Below are positions 16,324-20,672 of a stretch of DNA of 59,578 nucleotides, piece by piece. How positions within the stretch are numbered: the first letter of the stretch is position 1; the number at the start of each line of letters is the position of its first letter. Under the pieces are notes generated by a model, which saw only the letters and a list, made by a program, of their open reading frames with translations, did no database searches and was not told where the DNA came from. Source of the DNA: Campylobacterales bacterium (GTDB taxonomy: Bacteria > Campylobacterota > Campylobacteria > Campylobacterales > QNZT01). Both the position numbers and the translations under genes were made by a program. The stretch lies in NCBI GenBank assembly GCA_024278835.1, contig JAJRSK010000040.1, forward strand, positions 1-59,578, read 5' to 3'.

Positions 16324-18444
16324 ATGAGTACAAAAAAAGAGTTAGAACAGTTATTTAGTGAAATAACAAACGTCGCTATCTTTGCAACAGATGAAAATCG
16401 CGTGGTATGCGAGTGGAATAGTGCATGTGAAAACCTCTATGGATATAGTAAAGATGAGGCTATTGGTGAAACACTAGAATCATTGATTGTGCCTGTGCAT
16501 CTCAAAGATTTATTTGTTTGTGAATTTGAAGAAGCATACAAAAGTGACAAACCACTCTCTGCGCTTGAGGTAGAATATAGAAGAAAAGATAACGCGATGG
16601 TGCTAGTCAATGCCAACACGATATTTGTAAATGAAGGTAAAAAGAGAAAGTTTTATGCTTTTACTATCGATGTGAAAACAATGCATACAAGTTCAAGCCT
16701 AAGTGATGCCATCAACCCTCAAACTGCGGATAAAGAGAAACTTATTGTCATCTCTTTTGATAAGAGTAACCGTATCAATGCCTTTAATACCTTTGCCGAG
16801 GAGTTAACAGGATACCGTAAAAATGATGTATTGGGCAAAGATTTTGTGGCAACATTCGTACCTGAAAATTATCAAGAGAAGATACGCAATGATATCAAAG
16901 GGATTGCCAATGATAGACGCTCACGCCTCTCTTTTGACTTTCCCATCATCTGCCGAAATGGTGATAAAAAAGTAGTCAAATGGGAAAAATCACTCAAGAG
17001 CAAAAAAGCAGATGAAGAGATAGTCCTACTTATTGGCGTAGACTCTAAAGGGGATGAAAAGTTAGAGTATCTAGCAAACTATGACTCACTCACTGACTTA
17101 CCCAATAAAAATTTATTGATTGAAAAAATGCAAACATCTATGAATAAAGCAGTCAAACTAGATGAAAACATGGTGACACTCTTTTTAAATCTCGATAATT
17201 TTAAGACGATAAACCAAACCTTTGGTTATAACTTTGGTGATAAGCTTTTACAAGCGGTGAGTGAGAGAATGTGTTCAAAGCTTCGAGATTATGATACCGT
17301 TGCACGATTTTCTGGTGATGAGTTTGTTCTCGTGTTTGATAACATCGTGGATGATTTAGCGGCGGGTTCTCTGGCAAATCGCGTTTCAGCTCTCTTTGAT
17401 GATTCTTTTAAACTTGAGGGACATGAACTATTTCTATCGGTAAATATGGGACTTTCATTTTTCCCCTCTCATGGAAATGATGTCAAAACACTTATCAAAC
17501 ATGCCAACCTTGCAATGATAAAATCTAAAGAAGATAAATCTGTTAAATTTCAAATCTTTAAACAGTCCATGAACGATGATATCACCAATCGTATCGCACT
17601 TGAAACAAGTTTGAAAAAAGCGATTCATAATGGAGAATTTTTTGTTGAGTATCAGCCACAGGTTGATGCTAGAAGTCAAAAGATTGTCGGTGCTGAAGCG
17701 TTGGTGCGATGGAATCATCCAGATCTCAAGACGATTCCACCTCTTGATTTTATCCCTATCGCAGAAGATACGGGTATGATTTTGGAGATTGGAGAAATTG
17801 TTCTAAAAAAAGCGATTACGCAGGCAAAAGCATGGCATGATGCAGGATATACAGATATGAAGATGTCGGTCAATGTCTCTAGTATCCAGCTGCTTCAAAG
17901 TAATCTTTTAACAGTGATTGATGATATCTTGGAAGAGACAGGGTTTAATCCAGAATATTTAGAACTAGAGTTAACTGAGAGTGCCTTGATGCAAAATGTT
18001 GAGTTTGCTACAACTATCTTAAGAAGTTTTAAGGACAAAGGGATAAAAATAGCTATCGATGACTTTGGTACGGGATACTCATCATTTGGCTATCTTTCTA
18101 AGTTACCACTTGATTGTCTCAAGATAGATCAATCTTTTGTGCGAAAACTTAATAATTCTAAAAATGACAGAATTATCGTCTCTGCTATCAACGCTATGGC
18201 GCATAGTCTAGGTTTAGGCACTGTGGTGGAAGGCGTGGAAGAGAAATCTCAGTATGAGTATCTGAAAAACGAAGGGTGTGATGTGATTCAAGGGTATTAT
18301 TTTTCTAAACCTGTAGATGCTGCAACTTTTGAAAAACTTTTAGAAAATGGTATCAATTTAGACAATCAAGAACATGAACATTTTGATTTTGAAAAAGAAG
18401 AAGAATTAAAAAGTTATACAAAAGCACTAAAACACGCATTTTGA
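16324..18444 (+). CDS. PAS-PAS-GGDEF-EAL c-di-GMP signalling protein
   Basis: A 706-residue soluble protein with no membrane segment. Two PAS domains (about 8-115 and 135-240) precede a GGDEF domain whose signature is SGDEF (RFSGDEFVLVF) and an EAL domain with intact EALVRW, ELTESALM, DDFGTGYSSF, KIDQSFV and VVEGVEE. The EAL part should be an active phosphodiesterase; the GGDEF may be active or may bind GTP as a regulator. Start ATG 16324 has AGGA 9 bp before it; a TATCATGATA copy lies just upstream. A sigma-28-like promoter precedes it. The stop TGA falls in the first operator repeat of the next gene. Confidence 0.88.
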   Translation: MSTKKELEQLFSEITNVAIFATDENRVVCEWNSACENLYGYSKDEAIGETLESLIVPVHLKDLFVCEFEEAYKSDKPLSALEVEYRRKDNAMVLVNANTIFVNEGKKRKFYAFTIDVKTMHTSSSLSDAINPQTADKEKLIVISFDKSNRINAFNTFAEELTGYRKNDVLGKDFVATFVPENYQEKIRNDIKGIANDRRSRLSFDFPIICRNGDKKVVKWEKSLKSKKADEEIVLLIGVDSKGDEKLEYLANYDSLTDLPNKNLLIEKMQTSMNKAVKLDENMVTLFLNLDNFKTINQTFGYNFGDKLLQAVSERMCSKLRDYDTVARFSGDEFVLVFDNIVDDLAAGSLANRVSALFDDSFKLEGHELFLSVNMGLSFFPSHGNDVKTLIKHANLAMIKSKEDKSVKFQIFKQSMNDDITNRIALETSLKKAIHNGEFFVEYQPQVDARSQKIVGAEALVRWNHPDLKTIPPLDFIPIAEDTGMILEIGEIVLKKAITQAKAWHDAGYTDMKMSVNVSSIQLLQSNLLTVIDDILEETGFNPEYLELELTESALMQNVEFATTILRSFKDKGIKIAIDDFGTGYSSFGYLSKLPLDCLKIDQSFVRKLNNSKNDRIIVSAINAMAHSLGLGTVVEGVEEKSQYEYLKNEGCDVIQGYYFSKPVDAATFEKLLENGINLDNQEHEHFDFEKEEELKSYTKALKHAF

Positions 18445-18511
18445 CGATAAAAGTAGCAAATTGACGATAAATTGGTGAAAATACTATGAGATGTATTGAC
18501 TTTTATCGTCA
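18441..18511. promoter_or_regulatory. Three operator-like repeats TTGACGATAAA
   Basis: TTGACGATAAAA at 18441, TTGACGATAAAT at 18461 (exactly 20 bp later, two helical turns) and the inverted copy TTTTATCGTCA at 18501-18511. The inverted copy falls between the -35 and -10 of the promoter for the resolvase-like gene. This is the arrangement of a repressor or autoregulator binding site; the obvious candidate binder is the HTH protein encoded downstream. Confidence 0.65.
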
Positions 18512-18524
18512 TATAGGTTATAAT
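18496..18524 (+). promoter_or_regulatory. Near-consensus sigma-70 promoter
   Basis: TTGACT, 17 bases, TATAAT. It lies 26 bp upstream of the resolvase-like gene's ATG and overlaps an inverted operator copy. It should drive the resolvase-like gene and probably ccoG. Confidence 0.8.
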
Positions 18525-18550
18525 CTGGCTATGATTTAAAGGTGGAAATT

Positions 18551-19204
18551 ATGGTTATAGCATTTTTGCGAGGAAAAATAAGGGATTACTCGATCTCTTA
18601 TCAGCAAGAGTTTATTTTGGAATACGCTCAAAAACATGCCATTGCTATTGAAATGACAGAACTTGATAATTCACTTCCTACTACCTCTTTAGAAGAAAGG
18701 GAAGTATTATTAAACCTACTTAAGTCATTAAAAAAACATGATACACTTTTAGTCTATGATACGTCTGCTTTTTCTAAAAAAGTAGGAGAGTTAGCAAAGG
18801 TATTTGATTGCATACTCAAGCATGATATCAATGTTCATATTTGCAAACAAAATCTCGTTATCAACAGTGCAACATCTGCAGGTTTCTTGATGAGTATGCT
18901 CTCTAATCAAAGAGAGATTAACATCAATAAAGAAGTAGCCTCTATCGGTAGACCCAAAGGTAGTTTTTCAAAATCAAAATTTGACAAGTACAAAGGCGAT
19001 ATTGTAAAGATGTTGGAAAAAAACTTATCTGTGAGTGAGATAGCAAAGCGTTTGGGAGTGAGTCGTAGTTCCTTAAAAGATTATATCAATTCAAGATCGT
19101 TAAAAGAGATAGTAGGGCTGCAAAATAATGCAGGAAGCGTTCAGATCAATCTGAATATCACAGATGTGGAACATTCTGAGCAATGTCCATTGACAAATAG
19201 TTAA
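18551..19204 (+). CDS. Resolvase/invertase-like HTH protein lacking the catalytic serine
   Basis: A 217-residue protein with the fold of a small serine recombinase: N-terminal IAFLRG...SISYQQEFILEYA, then LLVYDTSAFSKKVGELAKVF (counterpart of the D-R-L-x-R-x region), the helix SAGFLMSMLSNQREININ and a C-terminal Hin-like helix-turn-helix preceded by GRPKGS (IAKRLGVSRSSLKDYI). Where active enzymes have the VST nucleophile, this one has GKIRD, and the conserved arginines of the active site are largely lost, so it is probably a DNA-binding regulator rather than a recombinase. ATG 18551 is preferred to GTG 18542 because of AAAGGTGG spacing. It sits directly upstream of ccoG and behind repeated operators, suggesting autoregulation. 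Confidence 0.8.
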   Translation: MVIAFLRGKIRDYSISYQQEFILEYAQKHAIAIEMTELDNSLPTTSLEEREVLLNLLKSLKKHDTLLVYDTSAFSKKVGELAKVFDCILKHDINVHICKQNLVINSATSAGFLMSMLSNQREININKEVASIGRPKGSFSKSKFDKYKGDIVKMLEKNLSVSEIAKRLGVSRSSLKDYINSRSLKEIVGLQNNAGSVQINLNITDVEHSEQCPLTNS

Positions 19205-19226: not shown

Positions 19227-20672
19227 ATGGCTGAAGCAGTATTGCCCAGAGATATGAAGGGTTCTAAGAAGAGAATGAGGGAGTACTTAAAGAGTTGGGT
19301 TCCTTATAGATTTCAACGCTATTATACATTCATAGCGATTACGCTATTTGGATTGATTATACCTTGGGTTAAAGTCAATGGAAACCATTTTTTTCTATTG
19401 AACTTTGATCATAAACAAATCCATCTTTTCTTTACTAAGTTTGATATGCAAGAGTTGTATATGATGCCATTTTTACTGATATTTGGTTTCTTGGGGGTCT
19501 TCTTTTTAACGACACTTGGTGGTCGTGTGTGGTGTGGTTGGGCCTGTCCTCAGACGATTTTTCGTGTTATCTATAGAGATTTAATTCAGACTAAGCTCTT
19601 AGGCATCCGTAAAAGCATCAAAAATAAACAAAAAGAACCTGAAGGTCAGATGGGTAAGAGAACAGTTGGTTTCCTTATATGGACGGTTCTGTCGTTTATA
19701 GCAGCGGCTAACTTTGTATGGTTCTTTGTACCACCTGAAGATTTTTTCAACTATATTAAAAACCCAGGTGAACATGGTGTGATGATGGGAACGCTTATCA
19801 TTTTGGCTGCATTTTTAATTTATGATATCGTGAAGCTTAAAGAAGATTTTTGTATCTATGTTTGTCCTTATGCAAGAGTACAGTCTGTTATGTATGATGA
19901 AGAGACGATTCAAACGATTTATAATACACATCGCGGGGGTCATGTTTATAGTGAAGATCAGCAGTCAAAGCTTGTCAATAGTCGCAATGAATTATTGGAT
20001 GTTGATGAGCATAATGAGTGTACGATGTGTGATAGCTGTGTGACGGTTTGTCCAACACATATTGATATCAAGAAGGGAACACAGTTAGAATGTATCAACT
20101 GTCTTGAGTGTGCGGATGCTTGTACACAAGTGATGGGTGCGCTGGGTAAGGAGTCTTTGATTACTTGGACGAGTTATTCGGCAGTAGAAGAGGAGAGAAA
20201 GCCTAAATATATCAGATTTAGAACGATTGCTTATGGTGTTGCTCTTTTAGCGGCACTCGCTGGATTGTTTATAGCAGGGGCTAGTAAAGAGTTTATGCTC
20301 TTAAATATCAATAAAACAACAGAGTTGTATCACATCAAAGACAATGGTCATAGAGTGACCAATGCCTACACTTTCTTAGTACAAAATACCGAAAGAGAAG
20401 ACCATAAGTACTACTTTGAAGTCTTAGGACAACCAGATATCATGATAGCAAGACCTAGCAAACCATTTAAAGTAAAAGCAGGACAAAAAATCAAAAAAGT
20501 GGTTGTGTTACAAACAACAAAAGATTTAGTAAAGGATAAAACAAAAGATACACCAATTCCTTTGACTATCAAGGCATATGCTGTAGATAACAAGGATAAA
20601 ATAGTTGTTGAGAGAAAAACAACATTTGTATTCCCAAGATATGATATTTTGCTGAAGAAAAGAGCAGAATAG
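19227..20672 (+). CDS. ccoG: Cytochrome c oxidase accessory protein CcoG
   Basis: A 481-residue membrane iron-sulfur protein that helps deliver or reduce copper for cbb3-type oxidase assembly. Several membrane helices carry the redox motifs GGRVWCGWACPQTIF and CIYVCPYARVQS. A two-cluster ferredoxin domain follows (CTMCDSCVTVCP and CINCLECADACTQ), then a last helix and an immunoglobulin-like periplasmic C-terminus (ITTELYHIKDN... to end). All cluster cysteines are present. It is downstream of the resolvase-like regulator, and the cco structural genes are not in the window. A strong terminator follows. Confidence 0.95.
   Translation: MAEAVLPRDMKGSKKRMREYLKSWVPYRFQRYYTFIAITLFGLIIPWVKVNGNHFFLLNFDHKQIHLFFTKFDMQELYMMPFLLIFGFLGVFFLTTLGGRVWCGWACPQTIFRVIYRDLIQTKLLGIRKSIKNKQKEPEGQMGKRTVGFLIWTVLSFIAAANFVWFFVPPEDFFNYIKNPGEHGVMMGTLIILAAFLIYDIVKLKEDFCIYVCPYARVQSVMYDEETIQTIYNTHRGGHVYSEDQQSKLVNSRNELLDVDEHNECTMCDSCVTVCPTHIDIKKGTQLECINCLECADACTQVMGALGKESLITWTSYSAVEEERKPKYIRFRTIAYGVALLAALAGLFIAGASKEFMLLNINKTTELYHIKDNGHRVTNAYTFLVQNTEREDHKYYFEVLGQPDIMIARPSKPFKVKAGQKIKKVVVLQTTKDLVKDKTKDTPIPLTIKAYAVDNKDKIVVERKTTFVFPRYDILLKKRAE

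Follow-up and report, generated by a model that had tools for sequence, protein, structure and literature searches.

The window, by which we mean the whole analysed stretch of 59,578 nucleotides, contains a gene for a proposed regulator of 217 amino acids, a set of putative operator half-sites around its promoter, and ccoG, which begins after a gap of 22 bp on the same strand. The two genes probably form one operon. A mechanical open reading frame caller places the start of the regulator at GTG 18542; we prefer ATG 18551, because AAGGTGG at 18539–18545 serves as its Shine-Dalgarno sequence and relatives begin at the same place. The features of the locus are listed below.

18441–18451, plus strand: putative distal operator half-site TTGACGATAAA, exact; N60 from the inverted CGTCA, common to the sister genome L039
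18461–18471, plus strand: putative second operator half-site TTGACGATAAA, exact, period 20; N40 from the inverted CGTCA
18496–18501, plus strand: −35 element TTGACT, in the same register in 77 of 80 relatives
18502–18512, minus strand: inverted operator half-site ATGACGATAAA, reading TTTATCGTCAT on the plus strand; 10 of 11 positions as in TTGACGATAAA, one mismatch
18519–18524, plus strand: −10 element TATAAT, spacer 17; TATACT or TATAAT in most relatives
18551–19204, plus strand: open reading frame of the proposed regulator, a predicted catalytically dead small serine recombinase, 217 aa (Pfam Resolvase, AF2, Foldseek)
18575–18577, plus strand: Lys9 codon, at the place of the nucleophile Ser10 (alignment)
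18809–18811, plus strand: Cys87 codon, helix 78–90, invariant in 81 of 81 orthologues
18947–18985, plus strand: GRPKGSFSKSKFD linker, nearly invariant (orthologue alignment)
18989–19099, plus strand: C-terminal helix-turn-helix (HTH), the most conserved part of the protein (Pfam and alignment)
19184–19186, plus strand: Cys212 codon in the variable C-terminal tail, invariant in 81 of 81 orthologues
19227–20672, plus strand: ccoG, cbb3 oxidase accessory protein (cupric reductase); TIGR02745, E 5.7e-143

The distal half-site overlaps the stop codon (18442–18444) of an upstream PAS-GGDEF-EAL gene at 16327–18444, a gene that the window's own family, but not the order as a whole, has in this place. 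An earlier, sequence-only reading had counted three copies of TTGACGATAAA: two are exact and 20 bp apart, and the third, inverted one matches at only 10 of 11 positions. It does lie, as had been claimed, inside a TTGACT-N17-TATAAT promoter (18496–18524), with its CGTCA beginning at 18507, 11 bp past the start of the −35 element and within the promoter spacer. In the window's genome, exact TTGACGATAAA gives 12 matches against 4 for a reversed 11-mer control, above what chance would give. The ten copies outside the regulator's own promoter are all singletons, nine of them within open reading frames and one overlapping the start of one, and the idea of a broad TTGACGATAAA regulon here was rejected at the exact-match level. 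The architecture itself, which it had been suggested to look for near the same gene pair, recurs in relatives.

The regulator matches the Pfam Resolvase family (PF00239, E 2.5e-10, 41 bits, cutoff 23.3) and several HTH models. Its AlphaFold (AF2) model, with a 77-sequence alignment, has a mean pLDDT of 82.5 and a C-terminal tail of low confidence; the best PDB matches of this model found by Foldseek are Tn3 and gamma-delta resolvases (Tn3 resolvase, E 1.1e-8). These results bear out the small serine recombinase fold and HTH first read from the letters. The best NCBIfam match is the Mpi family NF009949 (1.3e-16), at 60.9 bits, which does not meet the cutoff of 272. Alignment with Hin and gamma-delta resolvase confirms that GKIRD replaces the nucleophile motif: in the window the motif is R7-G8-K9-I10-R11-D12, with a lysine where Ser10 belongs. 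The nucleophilic serine (gamma-delta Ser10) is found in 0 of 81 aligned orthologues, and the Asp67/Arg68/Arg71 set is kept in none of them. The Arg8 position holds Arg or Lys, and Arg45 is kept in 75 of the 81. A catalytic serine at a shifted position would have refuted the loss of activity, and none appeared: no alternative conserved serine exists in the 81 orthologues, a nearby one (gamma-delta position 15) being not conserved. The alignment can detect an active site where one is present: Ser10, Arg68 and Arg71 are all retained in L213 and L214, two relatives within the order that appear to be active. That the regulator is a small serine recombinase by fold and catalytically dead is largely supported by alignment and structure prediction, with the loss of cleavage and strand exchange inferred.

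Other parts of the protein are strongly conserved. Cys87 and Cys212 are invariant, the latter in an otherwise freely varying tail, as are the HTH residues R172, S174, D177, S181 and R182 (81/81). The GRPKG-S-S-KFD linker is invariant or nearly so across orthologues, and we infer that it is a Hin-like minor-groove arm. Comparison with the sister species L039 gives dN 0.13, dS 2.2 (saturated) and dN/dS of about 0.06. Judged by these substitution rates and conserved residues, the gene is under purifying selection and its product functional with a changed job. If a redox or metal (copper) signal acts on the protein, it most likely does so at the two cysteines of each subunit; this sensing is inferred, without ligand or disulfide data. 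CcoG has been described as a cupric reductase that serves in cbb3 biogenesis (PMC8267372), which makes copper or thiol redox a natural guess for the invariant cysteines, for which there are no test data. The regulator is probably thiol- or metal-sensing, the signal itself being an inference.

A second dead recombinase was seen beside rplI/hslVU in two genomes of family f8 (L211 4649–5278 and L212 4117–4752, both on the minus strand). Like the regulator, it lacks the catalytic serine, with Asn at the Ser10 place, is without Arg68 and lies in conserved surroundings on the chromosome in both genomes; it differs in its rplI/hslVU neighbours, in keeping Arg71 and in lacking Cys87. It is possibly another domestication.

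A profile search of 399 Campylobacterales genomes recovered matches in 228. About 150 places score above 200 bits and make up the orthologue group; the others are weaker matches, to true or other recombinases. Sulfurospirillum, Sulfurovum, Sulfuricurvum and Hydrogenimonas are among the named members. In a sample of the phylum, with an undetermined number of outgroup genomes, matches are listed only within Campylobacterales; within what was searched, the regulator is confined to this order. No close relative was found to be carried by phages, and plasmid relatives are at most about 31% identical. The assignment of the window's neighbouring gene to ccoG was correct, and the linkage is order-wide: of the 80 named loci, 78 have ccoG directly downstream of the regulator, and the remaining two, L080 and L111, break off at contig ends. 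By hand-matched places, the adjacency holds in 70 genomes, with exceptions in G059 and G318; four more genomes could not be judged, the regulator being near a contig end. ccoG is present in 353 of the 399 genomes, and thus many lineages (f8, f10, f13) have it without the regulator. In G181, three equal-scoring ccoG matches (C1 1108913, 1219930 and 1330947) follow one another at intervals of exactly 111,017 bp, which probably reflects an error of assembly. Many of the genomes compared are metagenome assemblies, and they are related, so that counts are not independent and P values overstate the evidence.

The promoter pattern TTGACT-N5-CGTCA occurs in 77 of 80 relatives with one mismatch allowed per element. 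The promoter elements are near consensus with a 17–18 bp spacer, and the inverted half-site begins at a distance of exactly 11 bp from the start of the −35 element, between −35 and −10, except in L109. Absence of the repeats from relatives had been named as grounds for refuting the original proposal, and this fixed placement does not refute it. A direct TGACG half-site is positioned N28–30 upstream of the inverted CGTCA in nearly all relatives (61 of 75 at N29), and both arms share the consensus TGACG-AWAAA. In L099, L109 and L116 the inverted half-site is a CATCA variant at N28–29, and L051 has none. The window and its sister L039 show spacings of N40 and N60 instead; the extra 11 and 31 bp are near one and three helical turns, so the helix face is nearly kept. 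Only 11 of 399 genomes matched an order-wide scan with this unusual spacing, and tandem half-sites 20–21 bp apart are also found in L103, L104, L107, L111 and L115. The strict form of the operator is present in 42 of 80 upstream regions, against 0.05 expected from the remainder of the same loci (682 kb, with two strict sites). Position 1 of the half-site covaries between the arms, AGACG occurring with CGTCT: 70 of 75 pairs are identical versus 62.8 after shuffling (0 of 2000 shuffles). This co-change argues that one protein reads both arms. Covariation between the arms at position 3 was not significant (P 0.10).

The 39-bp operator also occurs at cydAB (cytochrome bd) promoters in three families, in 10 of 54 regulator-positive and 0 of 49 regulator-negative genomes (one-sided P about 0.001). 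The ten exclude two own-promoter hits and one distal hit, with which the Fisher P is 1.3e-4. The sites belong to G001, G008, G011 and G016 (f1), G045, G182, G319, G259 and G385 (f6) and G037 (f17); L209 2974–3012 is one such operator. Most cover TATTAT or reach or abut the Shine-Dalgarno sequence, and the ribosome-binding site is reached in G001 and G259. Beyond f1 and part of f6, most regulator-positive genomes have no site upstream of cydAB, and in the f20 and f16 genomes tested none was convincing. In a fourth family, f18, cydAB follows the regulator and ccoG co-directionally, the order in G055 being regulator, ccoG, NifX-like, small membrane protein, Pyr_redox, DUF4492, cydA and cydB. In two genera of f16 (G036, G053) the operator lies in front of a gene for a small membrane protein that resembles the one in the f18 array. 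Neither the cydAB link nor the two invariant cysteines had been part of the sequence-only reading.

Several further observations concern these and other candidate targets. The small membrane protein (about 70 aa, EPTLQ..DYDTLKGEKKK; L368 2275–2484, minus strand; L363 upstream of 2234, minus strand; L370 3075–3293) matches no Pfam family. G037 has a diverged regulator at L217 1315–1869, with its own operator at 1262–1300 and without ccoG as a neighbour, and its cyd operon carries the canonical TTGACTTTTATCGTCA. A 39-bp operator-like site precedes a DUF6858 gene in G036 (L367 2512–2550). An operator-like site in G045 (L369 2509–2546), just after a gene that by eye looks like nosZ and before a nosD-like gene, may be due to chance. 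Bipartite sites inside open reading frames (G004 C48, G054 C11, G045 741024) were dismissed as chance, and ccoNOQP was rejected as a target, no promoter-type operator being found before ccoN in 30 regions. The window's assembly (G000, completeness given as 99.99%) has no cydA and no true ccoN, only a weak heme-copper oxidase match, though ccoG is present. The target in this genome may thus be ccoG alone, and oxidase balance is not a possible role there unless contigs are missing.

We interpret the regulator as a domesticated dead resolvase that autorepresses its own ccoG operon and has been recruited in places to cydAB, and give this reading a probability of about 0.8. Homology, active-site loss, synteny and operator conservation are observed and uphold much of the original suggestion of an exapted regulator of itself and ccoG; binding, repression, with it the sign of regulation, and the signal are inferred, the evidence throughout being sequence and prediction. 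A serine resolvase or invertase would have been domesticated in Campylobacterales, losing catalysis and keeping sequence-specific DNA binding. The HTH and the GRPKG arm would read the TGACG-AWAAA half-site, and subunits would bind the inverted pair TGACG-N28/29-CGTCA (N40 and N60 in the window). Occupancy of the half-site in the −35/−10 spacer would block RNA polymerase and so repress the regulator–ccoG operon. In several lineages the operator overlaps the cydAB −10/start region, or the genes share one array, and there the protein would probably keep cbb3 assembly in step with the alternative bd oxidase. Resolvases are already known to repress: TnpR of Tn3 does so to its own gene from res sites that include promoters (PMC7157771). 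The simplest path would be loss of catalysis while repression was retained. A simple dimer may be unable to bridge the 39-bp inverted pair (50 bp in the window), since the gamma-delta site of 1gdt measures 34 bp.

The same regulator and operators could serve activation, with upstream-bound subunits recruiting polymerase. Tandem upstream half-sites 20 bp apart resemble an activator layout, and the f16 small-protein genes have poor in-register −35-like hexamers (TAGACT, TATTCT). However, the regulator's own promoter, into whose spacer one half-site falls, is near consensus, and cyd operators lie over TATTAT or extend as far as the ribosome-binding site; both points argue for repression, which is also the resolvase precedent (PMC7157771); activation stays possible, and we consider it unlikely. 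Still less likely, in our judgement, is that the sites belong to another transcription factor and the dead recombinase merely adjoins ccoG. Binding data are lacking, and adjacency of gene and site is the sole link; yet the site is in the regulator gene's own promoter order-wide, and cyd sites occur only where the regulator, or the diverged homologue of G037, occurs. The half-site, TGACGATAA from the outside in, also resembles resolvase half-sites, TGTC-N-GATAA.

Two further explanations meet stronger objections. A recombinase still working through a shifted nucleophile, and inverting or resolving DNA at the repeats, would fit the family membership and inverted half-sites that look like crossover sites, but is highly improbable given the absence of Ser10, of Asp67, Arg68 and Arg71 and of any conserved alternative serine, and given operators that are found at promoters and not at the ends of a segment. 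Lost catalysis would suit a decaying relic carried along beside ccoG; the low dN/dS relative to L039 (dS saturated), the order-wide invariance of the HTH, linker and both cysteines, and the retained operator leave this idea almost no room.

The domesticated autorepressor that we favour shares with Tn3/gamma-delta TnpR an N-terminal fold and C-terminal HTH, and half-sites with a conserved outer block followed by an A/T-rich inner part. TnpR binds near its own promoter and autorepresses (PMC7157771); in the regulator, binding-site-like repeats overlap the own promoter in 77 of 80 cases, and specific binding and repression are inferred from this conservation and from the covariation of the arms. 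Unlike TnpR, it has lost the active residues, comes without transposon or tnpA, is fixed beside ccoG, has a tail with an invariant cysteine, and uses an operator pair of 39 bp or longer that overlaps host promoters. With the Mpi/Hin/Gin invertases it shares the best NCBIfam match (Mpi) and an arm, GRPKG, that resembles Hin GGRPR; unlike them, it falls short of the family cutoff and has neither a catalytic serine nor an invertible segment. Sin can bind repeats in direct or in inverted orientation and is inactive at one of them; its site II offers a likeness, a serine recombinase that occupies a regulatory site without being catalytically active (PMC2428073). Sin is active at site I, whereas no member of the regulator family keeps an active site.

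Annotation usually treats recombinase genes as debris of mobile elements. In the present case, a single recombinase lineage has lost catalysis, become fixed beside ccoG and kept a promoter code across the order, including uncultured lineages. We found no inactive serine recombinase acting as a regulator in the open-access literature, and a 2019 review of Campylobacterota respiratory regulation makes no mention of a recombinase, resolvase or invertase (PMC6682613). That this is an order-wide family of dead-recombinase transcription factors, sensing copper or redox through Cys87 and Cys212 and setting the cbb3/bd balance, is a tentative extension to which we give about one chance in three. With two invariant cysteines to work on, the signal can be tested directly. 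Should binding be shown, the regulator would represent a new family of transcription factors and might account for the still unknown way in which terminal oxidases are controlled outside the pathogens.
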